This document shows, piece after piece, positions 8,317 to 18,463 of a DNA stretch of 62,329 bases (within the stretch, counting starts at the first letter, position 1; every line of letters begins with the position of its first letter). The stretch is from positions 1 through 62,329 of the forward strand of contig PDZV01000022.1 in the NCBI GenBank assembly GCA_002753135.1, written 5' to 3'. Origin of the DNA: Magnetococcales bacterium WMHbinv6 (GTDB lineage Bacteria; Pseudomonadota; Magnetococcia; Magnetococcales; Magnetaquicoccaceae). The translations under genes were made by a program, and so were the position numbers. The notes under the pieces were generated by a model that did no database searches, had not been told where the DNA came from, and saw nothing but the letters and a program-made list of their open reading frames with translations.

Positions 8317-8778
8317 ATGCACATAACCCACTTAATCACCCCGTCGCGTATTCTCCCTGATCTGCAGGGTAGCCAGCCTGCCGAAGTGTTTGCGCAGATT
8401 GGGCAACGATTTGCCCATGATCTTGCATTCAGCTCGGAAGAGGAGATTGCCAAGCTGTTTCTGCAGCGGGAGGCGATCAGTTCGACGGCCACCGGCCTTG
8501 GTCTTGCCTTTCCGCATGCCCGCTTGCCAGGGTTGCACACGCCAATGGCTGTCTTTGCCCGTTCGCGGCACGGTGTTGCTTTGTTGACGCCGGATCAGGA
8601 ACCGGTTCATCTGCTGATGGCATTGTTATCGCCGCCGGAAGCACGTGTCTACCACATCAAGGCACTGACCACTCTGGTTCGCCTTTTGCGTCGCCCCACG
8701 ATACGGCTGCGCCTGATGGCCATTCATGAGCCGGAACTGCTCTATCATGCGTTGGTCACGGAAGAGGATGAAACATGA
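8317..8778 (+). CDS. ptsN: PTS IIA-like nitrogen-regulatory protein PtsN
   Basis: EIIA-Ntr is a phosphoacceptor of the nitrogen-linked PTS that regulates potassium transport and other processes by protein contacts. It has 153 residues. The fold fits: FLQREAISSTATGLGLAFPHAR carries the phosphorylated histidine at about residue 67, and LLMALLSPPEA is the following conserved strand-helix. In most proteobacteria hpf lies between rpoN and ptsN; here there is no such gene. It overlaps rapZ by four bases. TrkAH, a known type of PtsN target in enterics, is also encoded here at 18793. Confidence 0.9.
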   Translation: MHITHLITPSRILPDLQGSQPAEVFAQIGQRFAHDLAFSSEEEIAKLFLQREAISSTATGLGLAFPHARLPGLHTPMAVFARSRHGVALLTPDQEPVHLLMALLSPPEARVYHIKALTTLVRLLRRPTIRLRLMAIHEPELLYHALVTEEDET

Positions 8779-9731
8779 GCCTGCAAAGTGAAATTCCTTC
8801 TGCCCTTCCGCAAGCGGCCCCGGCTGGCTCTTTTGTGATCCGCCATCTGGTTCTGGTGACTGGACTTTCTGGAGCAGGAAAATCGATCACCTTGAAATAT
8901 CTTGAGGATATGGGTTTCTATTGGACCGATAATCTGCCCATGTCGCTGGTACCAAGCTATTTGTACCATTTGGCGGCGGGGGGAGAACCCAATGTCCGGG
9001 TCGCGGTGGGTATTCATTTACGGGAAACAGGCTGTTTGTCCAGTTTTCAGGCCGATTACCGGCAGATTGCCGCCCTGGCCGAACAGTGTGAAGTGTTGTT
9101 TTTTGAAGCCAATCCCGAGACCTTGTTCATTCGTTATCAAGAGACGCGACGGCGTCATCCGTTGGCCCAGGGGCGCACGGTGCAAGAGGCCATTTTGTTG
9201 GAGAGGCAGGCCCTGGAGCCGGTGCGAGCCATTGCCGATCTGGTGATCGACACCTCGCGCACCAGCACGCCACAACTCAAAGATCGTCTCTCCCAGCTGT
9301 TTCAGGAGATGCTGATCGATCGGCGCAACGAGGGTGAACTGACCATTTTTATCCGCTCTTTCGGGTTCAAGTACGGAGCCAACACCGATGCCGACATGGT
9401 TCTCGATGGCCGCTTTTTGCCCAACCCCTATTATGACCCACAGTTGCGACCGTTCAACGGGCGGGAGGAACCGGTCATACGTTTTCTTGAGCGGGATGGC
9501 GAAGCCCTGGCTTTTCTGGACCGGCTGCAATCGCTGTTCGACTATCTGATCCCACGCTATCAGAAGGAAAAAAAACGCTATTTCACGGTAGACATCGGCT
9601 GCACCGGCGGCTACCATCGCTCGGTCTTCCTGGTCGAACAACTCACCCGCCGCCTGCGCCAACAAGGCTTCACGGTCCTGATGCGCCACCGGGATCTGCA
9701 CCGGGATCCACCAAAAACGGCGGATGATTAA
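8775..9731 (+). CDS. rapZ: RNase adapter protein RapZ
   Basis: RapZ is a nucleotide-binding adapter; in enterics it delivers the GlmZ small RNA to RNase E and so controls amino-sugar synthesis. It has 318 residues: Walker A GLSGAGKS at 30-37 in the N-terminal kinase-like domain, and the C-terminal RNA-binding domain has the family phrases FGFKYGA, ADMVLDGRFLPNPYY and IGCTGGYHRSV. The usual residue after GCTGG is a basic one; here it is Tyr. Outside enterics the RNA partner is unknown. Last gene of the LPS/rpoN run; the usual npr gene does not follow. Confidence 0.95.
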   Translation: MSLQSEIPSALPQAAPAGSFVIRHLVLVTGLSGAGKSITLKYLEDMGFYWTDNLPMSLVPSYLYHLAAGGEPNVRVAVGIHLRETGCLSSFQADYRQIAALAEQCEVLFFEANPETLFIRYQETRRRHPLAQGRTVQEAILLERQALEPVRAIADLVIDTSRTSTPQLKDRLSQLFQEMLIDRRNEGELTIFIRSFGFKYGANTDADMVLDGRFLPNPYYDPQLRPFNGREEPVIRFLERDGEALAFLDRLQSLFDYLIPRYQKEKKRYFTVDIGCTGGYHRSVFLVEQLTRRLRQQGFTVLMRHRDLHRDPPKTADD

Positions 9732-9757
9732 CTAATGGATGGTCAGAGGATACAACC

Positions 9758-10864
9758 ATGTTAAAACGGATCTATATTGATAATTTTCGTTGTTTTGTCA
9801 ATTTTGAATTGAAACTGAATGCCATCAATTTGATGTTGGGTAGCAATGGTTCGGGAAAAACAAGTATTTTTGACGTGTTGCAACGCATTCAGGAGTTTGT
9901 TATTGGCAATGCCCGAGTTTATGATCTTTTTCCGGTCGCTGATCTGACGCGGTGGCAACTGTTGGACCAACAGCGTTTTGAACTGGAACTGCTTGTCGAC
10001 AATGATAGTTATCTTTATTCTCTGTTGATTGAGCATGACAGTGAACGCAAGCGCATGCGTGTGCTAGAGGAAAAACTCGACATGAATGGCAAACCGCTCT
10101 TTGTTTGCCATAAAGGACAAGCGCAACTGTTTCGTGACGACCATTCGCCGGGCCCCCAATATCCTTTTGACTGGACATTGTCAGCTGTTGCGACTCTCCA
10201 CGAAAGACCGGAAAATAAAAAATTGACCCGATTCAAGCGTCAACTGGCAAAAATCATCATCGTCCGACCCATTCCAGCTTTGGTGGAAAAAGAGAGCCGC
10301 GGTGAACAAGAACGGTTGCACTACCGAATGGAAAATTTTCTTTCCTGGTATCGCCATCTTTCTCAGGAACACACGGCTGCCATATTCTTCCTGTTTCAGC
10401 AATTGCAATCAATCCTTCCCGGTTTTGTTGCCATGCGTTTAAAAGGCATGGGAGAAGAAGCACGGGCATTAAAGGTATTATTTTCCTCTCACTCTGAACA
10501 AGAAAACTTTACTTTTGATTTTCATGAATTGTCCGACGGGCAAAAAATGTTGATTATGATCTACAGCTTGATATTGGGCATGCAAGGAGAAAAACTTTCT
10601 CTTTTTATCGATGAACCTGATAATTTTCTCTCCCTGCGGGAAATTCAGCCCTGGTTGTCGCACCTTATCCATTTATCTGCAAACGACAGGGAGCAGGCGG
10701 TGTTGGTATCGCACCATCCAGAAATCGTCAACTATTTGGGATGCGAATATGGGCATTGGTTGCAACGGGAACAGTGCGGACCGGTGCGCGTAGGCCAAGA
10801 ACCACCCCAACCGGTGGCAGGATTGACTCTGGCGGAAACCTTTGGCCGGGGCTGGGAACAATGA
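9758..10864 (+). CDS. AAA/ABC-type ATPase of a two-gene ATPase-TOPRIM module
   Basis: The 368-residue ATPase resembles RecF/SMC-like AAA_21 proteins. The N-terminal phrase IDNFRCFVNFEL and Walker A GSNGSGKT (28-35) begin it. A signature-like LSDGQKM near 256, Walker B LSLFIDEPDN near 282, and an H-loop VSHHPEI complete a split ABC head; the region between is short, so it has no long coiled coil. A four-base ATGA overlap couples it to a TOPRIM-like protein. Such pairs occur among anti-phage systems (for example OLD-like and PARIS systems). That is analogy from architecture; the exact family is not identified. It lies between rapZ and sbcD. Confidence 0.75.
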   Translation: MLKRIYIDNFRCFVNFELKLNAINLMLGSNGSGKTSIFDVLQRIQEFVIGNARVYDLFPVADLTRWQLLDQQRFELELLVDNDSYLYSLLIEHDSERKRMRVLEEKLDMNGKPLFVCHKGQAQLFRDDHSPGPQYPFDWTLSAVATLHERPENKKLTRFKRQLAKIIIVRPIPALVEKESRGEQERLHYRMENFLSWYRHLSQEHTAAIFFLFQQLQSILPGFVAMRLKGMGEEARALKVLFSSHSEQENFTFDFHELSDGQKMLIMIYSLILGMQGEKLSLFIDEPDNFLSLREIQPWLSHLIHLSANDREQAVLVSHHPEIVNYLGCEYGHWLQREQCGPVRVGQEPPQPVAGLTLAETFGRGWEQ

Positions 10865-11379
10865 GTGTTACGTGTGTTCTGCTTTGCGAAGATCAGCAAA
10901 CGGAGCGATTCATCAAACAATATCTGCTACAAAGTGGCTGGAACCATCGTGACATTCGTACAGTAATCCGACAACACGGTAAAGGTGCTGCGGAACAATG
11001 GGTTCGGCAGAGCTTGCCTGCTGAACTCAAAGCCATGCGCAGCAAACAAAATCGTGTGTTGATTGTCGGCACGGACGCAGACAAAATGAGTGTTACCAGT
11101 CGAATCCAGACCTTGATCAAAGAGTGCAAAGTAAACAATGTCGCATGGATAAAGCCAAATGAACGGGTCCTCTTGATTATTCCGAAACGCAACATCGAAA
11201 CATGGATTGCCTTTCTGCATGGTGCATCAGTAGATGAAGAAAAAGATTATCAACACCATGAATGTTTAAATTGCAAACCAGAAATCGCGCAATTAAAAAG
11301 GATGTGCCAGACCAATCAGTGGCCCCCGGCACCACCCTCTTCCTTGCTTAGCGCCTGTAGTGAATTTAACAAACTATAA
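10861..11379 (+). CDS. TOPRIM-like protein, partner of the upstream ATPase
   Basis: This 172-residue protein starts with a strand LLCED containing Glu10, then carries the pair VGTDADK with Asp72 and Asp74. A glutamate after the first strand and a DxD after a later strand are the metal-binding signature of TOPRIM nucleases and topoisomerases. A later phrase, IPKRNIETWIAFL, resembles a segment seen in RloB/DUF4276-like partners of ATPases. The ATG overlaps the upstream gene's TGA, so the two are coupled. Nuclease activity is a prediction. The C-terminus ends shortly before the sbcD start. Confidence 0.65.
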   Translation: MSVTCVLLCEDQQTERFIKQYLLQSGWNHRDIRTVIRQHGKGAAEQWVRQSLPAELKAMRSKQNRVLIVGTDADKMSVTSRIQTLIKECKVNNVAWIKPNERVLLIIPKRNIETWIAFLHGASVDEEKDYQHHECLNCKPEIAQLKRMCQTNQWPPAPPSSLLSACSEFNKL

Positions 11380-11402
11380 CTATTACAAAACTGCTTTCGG
11401 TC

Positions 11403-12629
11403 ATGATCATCCTCCACACCTCCGACTGGCATATTGGGCATACCTTGTACGGGCGGCAGCGTCATGAAGAGTATGAGGCGTTGTTGCGATGGCTGTTGCA
11501 GGTGTTGCAGGAAGAACAGGTGGACCTGTTGCTGATTGCCGGGGATATTTTTGACTCCCCGCTGCCTGGCACACGGGCCTTGAGTTATTATTACCGCCTG
11601 CTGGCGGCCAGCGTCCGCTATTGTCGTCATGTGGTGGTTATCGGCGGCAATCATGACTCGCCGGCCCTGCTGGACGGACCGGCTGCTTTGCTCCAGGAGC
11701 TGCGGGTGCATGTCATCGGTGGCAAGCGGGCCGATGTGGCAGATGAGGTGCTGCTGCTCCGTCGCCCGGACGGTACACCGGAACTGCTGCTGGCCGCCGT
11801 CCCTTTTCTGCGCGAACGGGATCTGCGCACCCCATCCCCCGGTGAATCGGCTGAGGAAAAAGAACAACAGCTGCTGCAAGGGCTGCAGAACCATTACCAG
11901 GCCGTGGTTGCGCAGGCCAAACAGATCCGGGAACAGTGGCAACAGCCGCTTCCCTTGCTGGTCACCGGCCATCTGTTCATCAGCGGTTGCCCGGTGAGCG
12001 GTGACGAGGGGATGCGCGATCTGTACGTGGGCAACCTGGGACAAATCCCGGTGGCCCTGCTGCCGGAAGAGATCGACTATCTGGCCCTGGGCCACCTGCA
12101 TCGGGCGCAAAAAGTGCAAGGTTCCGAACGGATACGCTACAGCGGCTCACCGCTGCCGCTGGGCTTCGCCGATGGCAAACACCCTAAATCCATGACCCTG
12201 CTTTCCCTGGAACCCACCGCATGCAACTGCCGTCTGTTGCCCGTGCCCTGCTGGCAAACGCTGCAAACCATCCGCGGCAGTTGGTCAGAGATTGAAAGCA
12301 GGTTGCAACAACTGCGGCTCGCCGGCTCATCGGCCTGGTTGGAAATCATCCACGAAGGCAAAGAGATACTCGGCAATCTGCGTGAACGCATCGAAGCGAT
12401 CACCGCCTCCTCTACCCTGCAGGTTTTGCGCATCAAAGAACAACGCCTGATTGAACAGGCCCTGCACCAACAGTATGATGAGGATGACGGGTACGATCTG
12501 GATCCGCTGCAGGTATTCCAGCATTGTTTGCAGCAGCACGGGATTGAAACGGAACAACAAATCCTCCTGCAACAGGCCTTTGCGGAAATTCTCCACTCCC
12601 TGGATTTGCCTGCGGACGAAGAATCATAA
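11403..12629 (+). CDS. sbcD: Exonuclease SbcCD, nuclease subunit D
   Basis: This is the Mre11-type calcineurin-like nuclease of the SbcCD complex, which cuts hairpins and double-strand ends and limits palindromes. It has 408 residues with phosphoesterase motifs SDWHIGH (Asp8, His10), AGDIFDS, GNHDS and GHLHRAQ. The C-terminal half contains the capping and SbcC-binding region. The start at ATG 11403 keeps the first motif close to the N-terminus. sbcC follows only after an intervening 824-residue kinase gene, an unusual separation. Confidence 0.95.
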   Translation: MIILHTSDWHIGHTLYGRQRHEEYEALLRWLLQVLQEEQVDLLLIAGDIFDSPLPGTRALSYYYRLLAASVRYCRHVVVIGGNHDSPALLDGPAALLQELRVHVIGGKRADVADEVLLLRRPDGTPELLLAAVPFLRERDLRTPSPGESAEEKEQQLLQGLQNHYQAVVAQAKQIREQWQQPLPLLVTGHLFISGCPVSGDEGMRDLYVGNLGQIPVALLPEEIDYLALGHLHRAQKVQGSERIRYSGSPLPLGFADGKHPKSMTLLSLEPTACNCRLLPVPCWQTLQTIRGSWSEIESRLQQLRLAGSSAWLEIIHEGKEILGNLRERIEAITASSTLQVLRIKEQRLIEQALHQQYDEDDGYDLDPLQVFQHCLQQHGIETEQQILLQQAFAEILHSLDLPADEES

Positions 12630-12829: not shown

Positions 12830-15304
12830 ATGGAACAATCACCCCCTGCTCTTCTTTTCGTTGGCAATCGGACTGATTCTATCGGCCTGCTGCGCCTGCT
12901 GCTGGCGCAAAGCAGCTTGTCTGAGACCATTTTCCATCCTGTCGCCACCATGGAACAGGCCCTGAACTGGCTCGAACAGGAAAAGTTGCTGCCACTCATT
13001 TTGCTCGATGGCTCCCCTGCCGATCCGGTCACGAGAGAGGCAATCCAATACTTGCACAGCTGCAATCCGGCGGTACCGGTGGTGGTGCTGGCAGAGCTGT
13101 TTTCTCCCTCTCAGACCGTCACGGCCATGCAAGCGGGCGCTCAGGAGATTCTCAGCTGGACGGAACTGACTGGCAGCAGCTTGCAGCAGGCCATTTTCCG
13201 TGCCCAGGCACGCCAACAATACCTGTCGACGCTTGTACGGCAAGGTCAAACCGCTCCGCAGGAAAAACAGTTGGCGGAATACCAGCAATTGGCCAAAATC
13301 GGCAGTTGGGAACTGGATCTGCACAGCAATAGCCTCAAATGGTCAGAAGAGGTGTTCCGCATTTTTGAGATGGATCCGCGCTACTTTGCCGCCTCCTATG
13401 AAGGGTTTATTGCTCTGGTGCATCCGGACGACCGGGAGTTGGTCAATCAAACCTATCTGCAATCGGTCCGCAACCAAACCTCCTATAATCTGGAACATCG
13501 TCTGTTGTTTTCTGACGGTCGTCTCAAACATGTCCATGAGCGGGGGGAAACCCATTATGATGCTGCGGGCAAACCGATCCGCTCGATTGGCACCGTTCAG
13601 GACATCAGCGAACGCAAACTGGCGGAACGCCGGGAGGTGGAACAGGCCGCCCGCTATCATACCCTGTTTCAGGAGTCGCCAATTTCCCTGTGGGAAGAGG
13701 ATTTCAGTGCGGTAAAACAGTATCTGGATACCCTGCAGCAGCAAGGTATCACCGACATGCCAAACCATTTGCGCAGCCATCGTGAAACCGTCAAACGGTG
13801 TGCCAGCCTGGTGCGCATAGTAGACATTAACCAGAGTACCATCCACCTGTTTGCTGCCAGCAATCAACAAGAGATGTTGGCCAACCTGCCGCAATTTTTT
13901 ACCGATGATTCTCTGGAAGCCTTTTGCGACGAACTGATTGCCTTCTGGAGAGGGCAAGCCATGTATTGTACCGACTGCAACGAAAAAACCCTGAAAGGCC
14001 AGGTGATCTGGGTTCAGTTGCACGCCGTGCTGGTTGCCGGTTATGAACAAAGCTGGGGCCGGGTATTGGTGACGGTGGTGGATATGACGGCACGCAAGGT
14101 GGCGGAACAGAATCTGCTGGCGGCCAAGCAGGCGGCAGAGGCCGCCAACCAGGCGAAAAGTGAGTTTCTGGCCACCATGAGTCATGAAATTCGCACCCCG
14201 ATGAATATCATCATGGGCATGTCCGAGGTGTTGGTGCAACAAATTGCCGAAGGGGGCGATGAGCAGCAAGTCAGCTACATTCACGCCTTGCAGCGCAACT
14301 CCAATACCCTGCTGGAATTATTGAATAATCTTCTGGATCTGACCAAAGTGGAGGCCGACTCGATCGAGTTGGAGTCCATTGAATTCGATGTGATGGAACT
14401 CCTGCACAATCTGGTCTGCATGTTCCAGGTTCTGGTCAAAGAAAAGGGGGTACTGTTGCAACTGCAGGCCCAGATTCCCTCGGTGCAGCGTCGGGGCGAT
14501 CCGCTGCGCCTGCGCCAGGTATTGACCAATCTGATCAGCAACGCCATTAAATTTACCGAACACGGATCGATTACCCTGGCGGCCCATATCGATTCACTCG
14601 ACGGCCAACGACTCAGCTTTTCGGTCAGCGATACCGGCATTGGCATTCCAGAACAGAAACAGGCGATGATTTTCCAACTGTTTCAGCAGGCGGACACCTC
14701 GCACACCCGCAAGTATGGCGGCACCGGATTGGGATTGTATTTGTGCAAAAAAATTGTTGCTTTGCTGGGCGGCAATCTGCAACTGGCCAGCAAGCCTGGG
14801 CAAGGAAGCCGTTTTTATTTTACCATCGACCTGCCCATCGTCGCCACCGTACCAGCCACCCAGCCACCGCTGACCATACCGCTGGGTAGCAGCATGACCA
14901 AATGGGATGGTGTACGGATTCTGCTGGTCGAAGATTCAGAAGATAACATTTTTCTGGTCAAAACGTTCCTGCGTTCCACCGGCATTCAACTCGATGTGGC
15001 CGATAATGGTCAGATCGCCGTCGAAAAGGTGCAGAGCAACCACTATGATCTGGTGTTGATGGATATTCAGATGCCGGTGATGGATGGTTATACGGCCACA
15101 CGTCTGATTCGCCATTGGGAGCAGCAACAGCAACGGCCTGCGTTGCCGATTTTGGCCTTGACTGCCTATGCCCTGCATGGTGATCGGGCCAACAGTATCG
15201 CCGCAGGTTGCGATGGCCATTTGACCAAGCCGATTCGCAAGGCCTGCCTGTTTCGTGAGATGTCTGCCATCATGCACGGCAACCAACTTTGTTCTTTTTC
15301 ATAA
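12830..15304 (+). CDS. Hybrid sensor histidine kinase / response regulator
   Basis: This 824-residue cytoplasmic kinase has no membrane segment or signal peptide. Domains in order: a receiver-like region (about 5-125, with an aspartate in ILLDGSP near 62); PAS/PAC about 145-270; a second PAS-like segment about 278-425; HisKA with FLATMSHEIRTPM (phosphohistidine at about 452); HATPase_c with LISNAIKF, DTGIGIP and GTGLGLYL; and a C-terminal receiver with LVLMDIQMPVMDG (Asp about 744). No output domain is present, so phosphate probably goes to an HPt protein elsewhere. It is inserted between sbcD and sbcC; sbcC begins 15 bases after its stop. Confidence 0.88.
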   Translation: MEQSPPALLFVGNRTDSIGLLRLLLAQSSLSETIFHPVATMEQALNWLEQEKLLPLILLDGSPADPVTREAIQYLHSCNPAVPVVVLAELFSPSQTVTAMQAGAQEILSWTELTGSSLQQAIFRAQARQQYLSTLVRQGQTAPQEKQLAEYQQLAKIGSWELDLHSNSLKWSEEVFRIFEMDPRYFAASYEGFIALVHPDDRELVNQTYLQSVRNQTSYNLEHRLLFSDGRLKHVHERGETHYDAAGKPIRSIGTVQDISERKLAERREVEQAARYHTLFQESPISLWEEDFSAVKQYLDTLQQQGITDMPNHLRSHRETVKRCASLVRIVDINQSTIHLFAASNQQEMLANLPQFFTDDSLEAFCDELIAFWRGQAMYCTDCNEKTLKGQVIWVQLHAVLVAGYEQSWGRVLVTVVDMTARKVAEQNLLAAKQAAEAANQAKSEFLATMSHEIRTPMNIIMGMSEVLVQQIAEGGDEQQVSYIHALQRNSNTLLELLNNLLDLTKVEADSIELESIEFDVMELLHNLVCMFQVLVKEKGVLLQLQAQIPSVQRRGDPLRLRQVLTNLISNAIKFTEHGSITLAAHIDSLDGQRLSFSVSDTGIGIPEQKQAMIFQLFQQADTSHTRKYGGTGLGLYLCKKIVALLGGNLQLASKPGQGSRFYFTIDLPIVATVPATQPPLTIPLGSSMTKWDGVRILLVEDSEDNIFLVKTFLRSTGIQLDVADNGQIAVEKVQSNHYDLVLMDIQMPVMDGYTATRLIRHWEQQQQRPALPILALTAYALHGDRANSIAAGCDGHLTKPIRKACLFREMSAIMHGNQLCSFS

Positions 15305-15319
15305 CATCTTTATGATGCC

Positions 15320-18300
15320 ATGCGCATTCTGAGAATCCAGTGCAAAAACCTCAATTCTCTGGTGGGGGAGTGGCAGATTGATCTGCAACACCCCTCTTTT
15401 TGCCATGAACCCCTTTTTGCCATCACCGGTCCAACCGGAGCGGGCAAAAGCACCTTGTTGGATGCCATTTGTCTGGCGTTGTATGGCCGCACCCCCCGTC
15501 TGTCCCGTCTGAGCAAAAGCGGCAATGAGATCATGTCACGGCGTTGTGGCGACTGTTATGCTGAAGTGGAATTTCGCACTGCGGAGGGCCATTTTCAGGC
15601 CCAGTGGAGCCAGCGACGCAGTCGCGGGCGGGCGGATGGCGAGTTGCAACCTCCCCGGCATCGTCTGGAACAACTGGATGGGGAAAAGCGGGTCATTGCC
15701 GAATCACTGCGCGAGGTCGCTGCCGCCATTGAACAAAAAACCGGTTTGGATTTTGACCGTTTCAGCCGGGCCATGCTCTTGGCGCAGGGGCAATTTGCCG
15801 CTTTTTTGCAGGCCACGGCAGACGAACGGGCACCGATTCTGGAACAGATTACCGGTACGGAAATTTACAGCACTCTTTCGATCAAGGTGCATGAGCGACG
15901 GGCCCTGGAGCTGCGCCAGAAAGAGGAGTTGGCGCGTGCGGTAGCAGAGATCCGTTGCCTGAGCAGCGAGGAAGAGCAGGGGTTGCAGCAGGAGAGAGAG
16001 AGCTTGCAGCAACAACTGGCGGTGCTGCAACAGCAGTTGATCGACAGCGAGCAGGGGCTGCAGTGGTGGGCGCTGCTGGCCCGTCTGCAACAGGAAGAGC
16101 AGCAGTTGAGTGGCCGACACGCCGATTGGCAACAGAGGCGTGTTGCCTTTCGGGCAGACGAAGCCCGCCTGCAGGCGGCACTGCGGGCCATGGAGCTGTC
16201 GGCAGAGCAGGCAGCCTTGCGGGCACGCCGCCAGCAACGTCTGCAGACAGAGGGTCGCCTGCAGCGTCTGTTGACGCAACGTCCTGGCCAGATGATCCGC
16301 CAGCAGCAGAGGACGGAAGCGTTGCATAAGACGGAGCAGGCGCTGACCGATTATCGCCAGGAGGCGGCACAGCAACGCGCCTTGATCGAGCAGGTACGCC
16401 AACAGGATCAGCTGCTGCAAGCGTTATGGAGACCCGTTGCAGCTGGCGAACAGAGCCTGCGCAAAGCCAAAGAGTCCCTGCACCGCCTGCAGGAGCAGAT
16501 AGCGCAGCAGGAAAAGCGGCGCAATACCGTTGCCGACCGTCTGCAACAGCTGAATCAGCAACAAAGCCAAGCAGCTGGCGAGCAGGCGCTGGCCGGGGAG
16601 CTTACCGGCATTGAGCAGCGTTTTCTCCAGTTGCGTCAGGTACTTGAACAGCCTCCTTGCACTGCCACCGGACAAGAGACCGCACAGGTTGGCAATGAGA
16701 GTGTGGCCGAGTTGCAGAGGCGCTTGCAACAGTTGCAGAGCAGCCTGCCCTGGCAGACGGAAAAACGGCGCTTGGTGCAGGAACAGCTCATCCTGCAGGA
16801 GCGGGAGTGGGCCATGCTGCAGCAGATAGCCAATTTGCAGGAGGCCCGCCAGCAACTGCGCCCCGGTGAAGCCTGCCCGTTGTGTGGTGCCCTGGAGCAT
16901 CCCTATGTTGCCGCCGATCTGCCGGCACCGGATGGAGCATGGCAACGTTTGCAGCAGTTACGGCAACAGCTGCAGCAACAACAGACCCTTTTGGAATCCT
17001 TGCACCAGCAAGAGGCGTGGTTGATCTGGCTGCTGCAACGGCAACAGGCTTTGGAGAGTGCGCAACAGCTGGTTGCTCCGTTTGGCCTGACGCTGACGGT
17101 TGCCTCACCGTTGGCCAACCTGCTGCAGAACCTGCAGAAACGCTGTCGGCAGTGGCAGGAGAGAGAAGAAGAACGGCAACGACTGGCAAACGAACAGAGC
17201 GTACTGGCCGCCACCCTGCAACAACAACAGCAGCAACAGCAACAGTGGCAGATGCAGATTGCCCAGGATGAATCCCGTCTGCATGGAATGCGCCAGGAGT
17301 GGTCGGAGCTGCAGAGTGAACGACAACGACTGTTTGGGGCAGAGGATCCGCAGCAACGCCAGCAGGCGTTGGAGGCCCAGGGCAAGGAGCGGGAAACGCA
17401 ACAACAACAGGCCCGACAGGCATGGCAGGAGGGCAGCAAGGCGTTGGCGGTGCTGGACCATGAAGTGGCGGGGTTGCAGAGTGACTTGCAGCAGGGGGAA
17501 TCGCTGTGGCGTCACCAGGAAGAGCGGTTGCAACAACGTCTGCAGGAGGCCGGTTTTGTTGATGAATCCCATTGGCACTCAGCCAGTTTATCCGAGGCGC
17601 AACGCACGGCGTTGCAAGGCCAGTTACAGCAATTGACAGAAGAGGAACATCATCTGCTGCGGCGCCGCACAGAAGTGCGGCAACAGTTGCAACAGGCGCA
17701 AGAGACAGCAGTAACCGGCGAGAGTGCCGAAAAGTTGCAGACGCTTCGCCAAAGCTTGCTGGAGAGTCAACAGAGTCTGCAGCAGCAATGGGGGGCGATC
17801 GAGCAGCGTTTACTGGATCAGGCCCAGCAGCGGGATGAACGACAACGACGACAGCAGAGTTGGCAACAGCAGCAACAGGCCTGTGCCCGTTGGGAGATGT
17901 TGCACACTCTGATCGGCTCGGCAGATGGCAAAAAATTTCGCAATTTTGCCCAGGGCTTGACCTTTGAACGGGTGGTCAGGCAAGCCAACCGGCAGCTGTT
18001 GCGCCTGAACGACCGCTACCAACTGTGCCGCGACGCGCAACAACCATTGGAATTGAATGTGGTTGATTTGTATCAAGCCGGAGAGGTTCGTTCCAGCCGC
18101 AATCTCTCCGGTGGCGAAAGTTTTGTGGTCAGTCTGGCCTTGGCCCTGGGGCTGGCGCAGTTGCCCGGACAGCGGATTCAGGTGGATTCGCTCTTTCTCG
18201 ATGAAGGGTTTGGCACCCTGGACGAAAACGCCCTGCAGACCGCCCTGGAAAGTTTGGCCACCCTGCAACAAGAGGGCAAACAGATCGGCATCATCTCCCA

Positions 18301-18463
18301 CATCGCCGCACTGCGTGAGCGGATCCCCGCACAAATTTTCATCCAACCGCAAGGGGGTGGACGCAGCATTATTACAGGCCCTGGTTGTGAAAAATTATCA
18401 TCCGGCAAAACAACCCGCCTCTCCACGCAAGATCGCATACTTCCCACTTCACAAAACATGTAA
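15320..18463 (+). CDS. sbcC: Exonuclease SbcCD, ATPase subunit C
   Basis: This is the Rad50-type ATPase partner of SbcD. It has 1047 residues: Walker A GPTGAGKST at 37-45, a very long coiled coil broken by a zinc hook CPLC at about 520, then ABC signature LSGGESF near 928 and Walker B LFLDEGFGTLDE. The arms are unusually rich in glutamine, including a run of eight or more. The start ATG at 15320 has no strong Shine-Dalgarno and follows the kinase gene closely, so coupling or joint transcription is likely. Confidence 0.95.
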   Translation: MRILRIQCKNLNSLVGEWQIDLQHPSFCHEPLFAITGPTGAGKSTLLDAICLALYGRTPRLSRLSKSGNEIMSRRCGDCYAEVEFRTAEGHFQAQWSQRRSRGRADGELQPPRHRLEQLDGEKRVIAESLREVAAAIEQKTGLDFDRFSRAMLLAQGQFAAFLQATADERAPILEQITGTEIYSTLSIKVHERRALELRQKEELARAVAEIRCLSSEEEQGLQQERESLQQQLAVLQQQLIDSEQGLQWWALLARLQQEEQQLSGRHADWQQRRVAFRADEARLQAALRAMELSAEQAALRARRQQRLQTEGRLQRLLTQRPGQMIRQQQRTEALHKTEQALTDYRQEAAQQRALIEQVRQQDQLLQALWRPVAAGEQSLRKAKESLHRLQEQIAQQEKRRNTVADRLQQLNQQQSQAAGEQALAGELTGIEQRFLQLRQVLEQPPCTATGQETAQVGNESVAELQRRLQQLQSSLPWQTEKRRLVQEQLILQEREWAMLQQIANLQEARQQLRPGEACPLCGALEHPYVAADLPAPDGAWQRLQQLRQQLQQQQTLLESLHQQEAWLIWLLQRQQALESAQQLVAPFGLTLTVASPLANLLQNLQKRCRQWQEREEERQRLANEQSVLAATLQQQQQQQQQWQMQIAQDESRLHGMRQEWSELQSERQRLFGAEDPQQRQQALEAQGKERETQQQQARQAWQEGSKALAVLDHEVAGLQSDLQQGESLWRHQEERLQQRLQEAGFVDESHWHSASLSEAQRTALQGQLQQLTEEEHHLLRRRTEVRQQLQQAQETAVTGESAEKLQTLRQSLLESQQSLQQQWGAIEQRLLDQAQQRDERQRRQQSWQQQQQACARWEMLHTLIGSADGKKFRNFAQGLTFERVVRQANRQLLRLNDRYQLCRDAQQPLELNVVDLYQAGEVRSSRNLSGGESFVVSLALALGLAQLPGQRIQVDSLFLDEGFGTLDENALQTALESLATLQQEGKQIGIISHIAALRERIPAQIFIQPQGGGRSIITGPGCEKLSSGKTTRLSTQDRILPTSQNM

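Follow-up and report, generated by a model that had tools for sequence, protein, structure and literature searches.

PARIS pairs an ABC ATPase with a TOPRIM nuclease, which the ATPase keeps inactive until a trigger is sensed (PMC12409363). In BREX loci, TOPRIM-linked OLD-ABC dyads have been described as suicidal effectors that serve as a backup (PMC12839542). What defines HEC systems is their location between Hma genes; one of them, HEC-04, combines ABC ATPase and TOPRIM in a single fused protein and is reported to protect E. coli against T4 and T5 (PMC12111858). We analyzed a gene pair in a contig of Magnetococcales bacterium WMHbinv6 (PDZV01000022.1; the whole stretch of 62,329 nucleotides is referred to here as the window) that encodes an ABC ATPase and a small TOPRIM protein. 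The results make it probable that this pair is a compact two-gene defense module, belongs to an uncatalogued family of split OLD-type ATPase/TOPRIM dyads, and works like PARIS.

The layout of the locus is given in Table 1. The original prediction, made from sequence alone, had described an ATPase gene coupled by an ATGA overlap to the gene of a 172-residue protein, with the pair lying between rapZ and sbcD; the open reading frame coordinates, the 4-nucleotide overlap, and the two flanking genes all agree with this description. The TOPRIM open reading frame has a longer in-frame start at 10741, and its homologues begin at the position equivalent to 10861. A -4 overlap of the two genes was also seen at four other loci (L023, L028, L088, and L094). 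With edge gaps of just 26 and 23 bp, the pair sits within a series of codirectional genes. Its GC content is 45% compared to 54% for the whole window, and 27 of 608 segments of 1.6 kb are equally low. Downstream, a histidine kinase-like open reading frame separates sbcD from sbcC in the window, while the two are directly adjacent in two other genomes (G003 and G006).

Table 1. Features of the ATPase/TOPRIM gene pair and its surroundings in the window.
Feature	Coordinates	Strand	Remarks
rapZ	8775-9731	+	Flank 5' of the pair
Gap from rapZ stop to ATPase start, 26 bp	9732-9757	+	Left edge of the variable rapZ-sbcD slot
OLD/Rad50-type ABC ATPase, 368 aa, ATG start	9758-10864	+	Predicted sensor/regulator; Pfam, AlphaFold2, and structure matches
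ATGA start/stop overlap, 4 nt	10861-10864	+	Couples the ATPase and TOPRIM genes; sequence
Small stand-alone TOPRIM protein, 172 aa	10861-11379	+	Predicted metal-dependent nuclease effector; AlphaFold2, structure matches, and conserved residues
Gap from TOPRIM stop to sbcD start, 23 bp	11380-11402	+	Right edge of the rapZ-sbcD slot
sbcD	11403-12629	+	Flank 3' of the pair
Hybrid sensor histidine kinase-like open reading frame	12830-15304		Between sbcD and sbcC
sbcC	15320-18463		Named by homology to genes 3' of sbcD in related genomes

The ATPase contains Walker A (G28-x-N-G-x-G-K34), signature (S259-D-G-Q262), Walker B (D285-E286), and H-loop (H319) motifs and matches the Pfam families AAA_21 (5.5e-13) and AAA_15 (5.7e-11). 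K34, D285, E286, and H319 are invariant in all 84 ATPases compared, and the S-D-G-Q signature is nearly so. The AlphaFold2 model built on the 84-sequence alignment (pLDDT 92.7 and pTM 0.90) matched Rad50, PtuA, and SMC heads with Z values of about 20 to 21 in structure comparison (VIA) and the OLD nuclease of Thermus scotoductus (6p74) with a Foldseek E value of 2e-13. The protein is an OLD/Rad50-type ABC ATPase with intact motifs, the type that constitutes the ATPase half of a split OLD-type ATPase and TOPRIM dyad. The best PADLOC match for any member of the ATPase family was no better than 5e-29, and the family therefore apparently lacks a specific PADLOC model; for the window ATPase, the best match was PDC-M25A (85 bits).

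The TOPRIM protein was less accessible to profile searches. It matched no Pfam family above the cutoff, the single sequence gave no usable family in Pfam, NCBIfam, and PADLOC, and no relative was found among PDB sequences with phmmer or hmmsearch. Weak matches of the sequence to Colicin_E5, DUF498, and PDH_N were discarded as noise. Of the profiles that the original prediction had suggested, AAA_21 applied to the ATPase, the window TOPRIM protein matched none above the cutoff, and DUF4276 and RloB were matched weakly by relatives. DUF4276 was matched by 14 of 87 relatives (best, 3.9e-4) and DUF3226 by 13 of 87 (best, 8e-7). These weak matches agree with a TOPRIM assignment, since we take DUF4276, DUF3226, and RloB to be TOPRIM-type families.

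The AlphaFold2 model of the TOPRIM protein (87 sequences; pLDDT 91.9) runs in the order strand, E10, helix, strand, helix, strand, D72xD74, helix, strand, N111-I-E113, helix. Its top structural matches are Toprim domains of OLD proteins, namely, 6p74 (Z of 8.5 over 130 residues at 3.7 Å), 6nk8 (Z of 7.5), and 6njv (Z of 7.0). Pyrococcus PH0156 (2p62; Z of 7.5) was also among the best matches, and the top rank in Foldseek was again 6nk8, at an E value of 0.0055. A prediction lacking this fold would have spoken against the original proposal, but the model does give an OLD-like Toprim fold. The Glu10/Asp72-x-Asp74 signature on which that proposal was based is likewise confirmed: among 87 homologues, E10 is conserved in 87, D72 in 86, and D74 in 86 (one gap), and E113, which had not been listed, is conserved in 87. 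The Z values are moderate, but the TOPRIM assignment is firm because the acidic residues lie at TOPRIM positions and are conserved. The ATPase gene is thus adjacent to a separate TOPRIM protein gene with E and DxD, as in a split dyad.

We scanned GTDB for TOPRIM homologues and retained the best 80 of 199 relatives. A homologous ATPase gene was located directly upstream on the same strand in 79 of these 80 loci (the exception being L084), and in none of the 80 were the two fused. The pairwise distances of the ATPase and TOPRIM proteins were correlated (Mantel r of 0.81, with 0 of 1,000 permutations as high); the two proteins codiverge. The occurrence of homologous pairs in many phyla, in the same order and on the same strand, indicates that the arrangement in the window is more than chance. 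The ATPase tree spans at least 18 phyla, with 29 phylum-label changes compared to a minimum of 17. This suggests some transfer, yet there are long vertical stretches too, and mislabeled bins and paralogues could contribute to the label changes. A TOPRIM match was found in 9 of 100 relatives and, across the phylum, in 11 of the 398 genomes sampled, with some matches in this second set being weak. The pair is accessory and patchy and is found at different loci, which differs from the core housekeeping genes, always at this locus, that would have argued against the original prediction. The window's own genome has a second, divergent pair (contig C69:18235-19861; L010 and L020; 35% identical when the ATPases are compared) upstream of an htpG-like gene, and a pair occupies the equivalent position in G006. 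At two loci, the TOPRIM reading frame is broken (L036:7971-8168 and L045:3248-3298), by decay or assembly error.

Hma or BREX operons contain the pair at 8 of the 80 loci (best 80 of 199), and the majority of the 80 have no obvious defense neighbor. The pair lies between the Hma methylase and Hma ATPase genes in L022 and beside one or both of these genes in L049, L051, and L086. At four other loci (L030, L031, L035, and L071), pglX-type and pglZ genes accompany the pair, and a conserved gene of the 682-aa class, which may be the Lon-like BREX gene, is next in order. The ATPase gene of L031 starts within an ATGA overlap with the pglX-type gene. Because the base rate of PglZ is low (above the cutoff in 16 of 200 genomes of the phylum), four PglZ neighborhoods in 80 loci are far beyond chance; the rough binomial value is 3e-10, or 4e-5 if only two are independent, which is an order-of-magnitude estimate with a base rate taken from one phylum. 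The original prediction of a candidate defense system, which had proposed counting homologous pairs near defense genes, is supported by this association, that is, by the embedding in Hma and BREX operons together with the variable slot that the pair occupies in the window.

We infer a defense role for the pair and, with it, complex formation, sensing, nuclease activity, and abortive infection. The ABC ATPase would probably oligomerize, bind the small TOPRIM protein, and keep it inactive. The ATPase would release or activate the TOPRIM protein on sensing infection, for which a phage protein or abnormal DNA could be the cue. The TOPRIM protein would then cut nucleic acid, either DNA or RNA, in a divalent-metal-dependent reaction via E10, D72, D74, and E113, and this cutting would halt phage growth, probably at the expense of the cell. 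The anatomy and the defense associations of the pair fit the PARIS route.

The position of the pair between rapZ and sbcD raises the alternative of a housekeeping module for DNA repair or genome maintenance, in which the pair would cooperate with SbcCD or with RecBCD-type functions to process DNA ends or intermediates. The slot between rapZ and sbcD is variable in the genus. It holds a TPR gene in G001 (L129), a ParA-type and AlbA/HATPase gene pair in G003 (L131), and a small gene with a 943-aa ParA-type protein matching the PADLOC candidate PDC-M28B/C in G004 (L132); G005 has no clear gene there, and rapZ and sbcD are on separate contigs in G006. The interval thus looks like a small hotspot. 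Since four sister genomes keep sbcD beside or near rapZ without the pair there, the proximity to sbcD belongs to the site and not to the pair. The original prediction had placed the pair next to end-processing nuclease genes, and this position is true but mostly incidental, as sbcD is near rapZ in four pairless sister genomes.

Outside the genus, the pair also occupies housekeeping sites, where gene names were read from the sequence. In five Methylococcaceae-type genomes (L026, L059, L063, L100, and L101), it lies between the two glutamate synthase genes in the order gltB-pair-gltD, all in one direction, and in four Chlorobi, it lies within an ABC transporter operon. These stable sites in housekeeping operons speak against a simple defense story and could reflect domestication or a second role. 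On a Cloacimonadota contig (L064:6887-13703), the pair is directly 5' of sbcD and sbcC and close to a large helicase-like gene. A repair function would account for sbcD and sbcC downstream of the pair in the window and next to it in L064, for the fixed housekeeping operon positions in some lineages, and for the Rad50-like character of OLD-type ATPases, and Cran1, an OLD protein of archaea, has a cell cycle function and apparently none in defense (PMC12796447). However, sbcCD is near the pair in just 2 of 89 loci (the window and L064), relatives have sbcD near rapZ without the pair, the pair is present in only the 9 of 100 and 11 of 398 genomes given above, and pairs are found within Hma and BREX operons. 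We therefore consider the repair module unlikely, and a defense function remains the preferred interpretation.

The distribution on mobile elements was examined as well. The 50,697 phage records searched gave no match to the pair. Among 2.9 million viral contigs, there was no TOPRIM relative, and the ATPase matches were just short motifs; in 72,556 plasmid records, there was no TOPRIM relative and only two distant ATPases. A Dolichospermum plasmid ATPase match had no recognizable TOPRIM partner annotated beside it, and the annotation of one distant ATPase relative in a public record is just "AAA family ATPase." The near-absence from phages, viral contigs, and plasmids is unusual for a mobile defense module and counts against a simple defense story, although the main hosts of the family are environmental bacteria, for which phage and plasmid sampling is poor. 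It also bears on the possibility of a toxin-antitoxin or plasmid stability module, in which a TOPRIM toxin would be held by the ATPase and the main role would be addiction or anti-plasmid rather than anti-phage activity. The strict pairing of the ATPase and TOPRIM genes would be expected of such a module, and PARIS, which has the same architecture, includes a solved AriA chain called "AriA antitoxin" in the PDB. This possibility is about as unlikely as a repair function, as the family is hardly present on plasmids and the restriction-like operon embedding points to invader control; its molecular mechanism, moreover, overlaps that of the PARIS-like defense module.

In the OLD nuclease of T. scotoductus, metal A is bound by E377, D431, and D433 and metal B by D381, S478, and E480 (PMC7049728). 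The TOPRIM family of the window retains the metal A set (E10, D72, and D74) and the equivalent of E480 (E113), an equivalence inferred from order and secondary structure rather than from residue-level superposition. The metal B acid at the ExxxD/E position is absent from the family, which has T14, Q, or H there, and S478 is replaced by N111, so the two-metal ligand set of OLD nucleases (ExxxD/E and SxE) is incomplete in the window protein. Catalysis by the TOPRIM protein is thus not certain. A catalytically dead regulator, in which the TOPRIM protein would no longer cut but serve the ATPase as a nucleic acid-binding adaptor, would explain the incomplete metal B ligands (T14 for D/E and N111 for S), but it is the least probable explanation, since E10, D72, D74, and E113 are kept in 86 to 87 of 87 homologues across phyla and an inactive domain would need none of them.

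Going beyond the PARIS-like defense module, it is conceivable, although we hold it with little confidence, that the family consists of uncatalogued, phylogenetically broad chromosomal defense dyads lodged in host operons (rapZ-sbcD, gltB-gltD, BREX, and Hma), with a minimal TOPRIM nuclease and an altered metal B site. Both sensor and target might then be new; the dyads could, for example, watch over the function of the host operon itself or respond to the inhibition of restriction systems. The present analysis adds to the split OLD-ATPase/TOPRIM defense dyads an unmodeled family whose members come from at least 18 phyla, free-living environmental groups among them. Its recurrent embedding in Hma and BREX operons leads to the testable hypothesis that inhibition of restriction calls the dyads into action as a backup, and the small TOPRIM protein with an altered metal B site offers a minimal system in which to test the chemistry of TOPRIM nucleases.

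Among known systems, HEC-01 (Hma-embedded candidate 01), PARIS, and AbiL stand nearest to the pair. Class 1 OLD proteins, Gabija GajA, and retron Eco8 share both domains with the pair but have them fused in one protein, while the pair is separate, with no fusion in the 80 loci. Gabija has a helicase and the retron has a reverse transcriptase and noncoding RNA alongside the ATPase-TOPRIM protein; the window has no such partner. DUF4276 and DUF3226 resemble the TOPRIM protein through weak matches of relatives and, structurally, through PH0156 (2p62), while the window protein itself is unmatched. For PDC-M25, the M25A model matches the window ATPase, but M25B does not match the window TOPRIM protein and matches only 3 of 87 relatives (best, 7e-4). 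The mad3 and mad4 genes of MADS likewise encode an ATPase followed by a small protein, and mad4 matched the TOPRIM protein weakly (E value of 0.012). The mad3 profile (PDLC04135) was rejected as an identity for the ATPase: six proteins that are mere neighbors, apparently ordinary ABC transporter subunits, match it at E values of <1e-20, down to 2e-32, and the profile is therefore unspecific and unfit by itself for calling MADS. No other MADS genes were identified near the window pair, which is flanked by rapZ and sbcD. AbiL (AbiLi and AbiLii, with an RloB-type partner) also combines an ATPase with a TOPRIM-type partner, and the AbiLi model scores 66 bits on the ATPase. In contrast, the window TOPRIM protein has no AbiLii or RloB match, and only 3 and 2 of 87 relatives, respectively, match weakly.

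PARIS (AriA/AriB, "class 4" OLD) shares with the pair an OLD-type ABC ATPase and a TOPRIM nuclease encoded by separate adjacent genes, and the AriA model matches 58 of 84 ATPases. The solved AriA has 464 aa compared to 368 aa for the window ATPase. In the profile searches, AriB was not among the families matching the window TOPRIM protein or the 25 families listed for its relatives. Nor did AriB appear in the list of structure matches to the TOPRIM model, an absence that by itself rules nothing out. PARIS is further characterized by an AriA hexamer that sequesters AriB, a trigger such as Ocr, and tRNA cleavage.

HEC-01 likewise consists of two adjacent genes, an OLD-type ATPase gene followed by that of a small TOPRIM-type protein. 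The motif order is E / DxD / E-L-E-x-W in HEC-01B and E / DxD / N-I-E-T-W in the window family. HEC-01 ATPases are related to the window family over the full length (hhalign, 99.8%; E value of 1.7e-27), and the window ATPase matches HEC-01A over nearly its full length (67.8 bits; E value of 2e-19), below its match to PDC-M25A (85 bits). The TOPRIM profiles of the two families are distantly related (probability of 91%; E value of 1e-6). The window TOPRIM protein has no HEC-01B match and its relatives reach an E value of 1.7e-7 at best, compared to about 100 to 290 bits for genuine HEC-01B, which also differs in length and in the C-terminal region. The Hma embedding typical of HEC-01 is absent at the window, with its rapZ and sbcD flanks, but present in relatives such as L022 and L049 and nearly so in L051 and L086. 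HEC-01B matches are common in this bacterial order, and across the phylum, 40 of the 249 genomes sampled have them; the window's genome itself has an HEC-01A/HEC-01B-type pair elsewhere (contig C24:117166-117807; L146). Comparison with genuine HEC-01 loci led us to reject a HEC-01 identity for the TOPRIM partner. As the ATPases are clearly related and the TOPRIM proteins distantly so, the window pair is best termed a sister family of HEC-01. The original suggestion that the pair may be undescribed is fair for the family, but the kind to which it belongs is known from the split dyads of PARIS, AbiL, and HEC-01.
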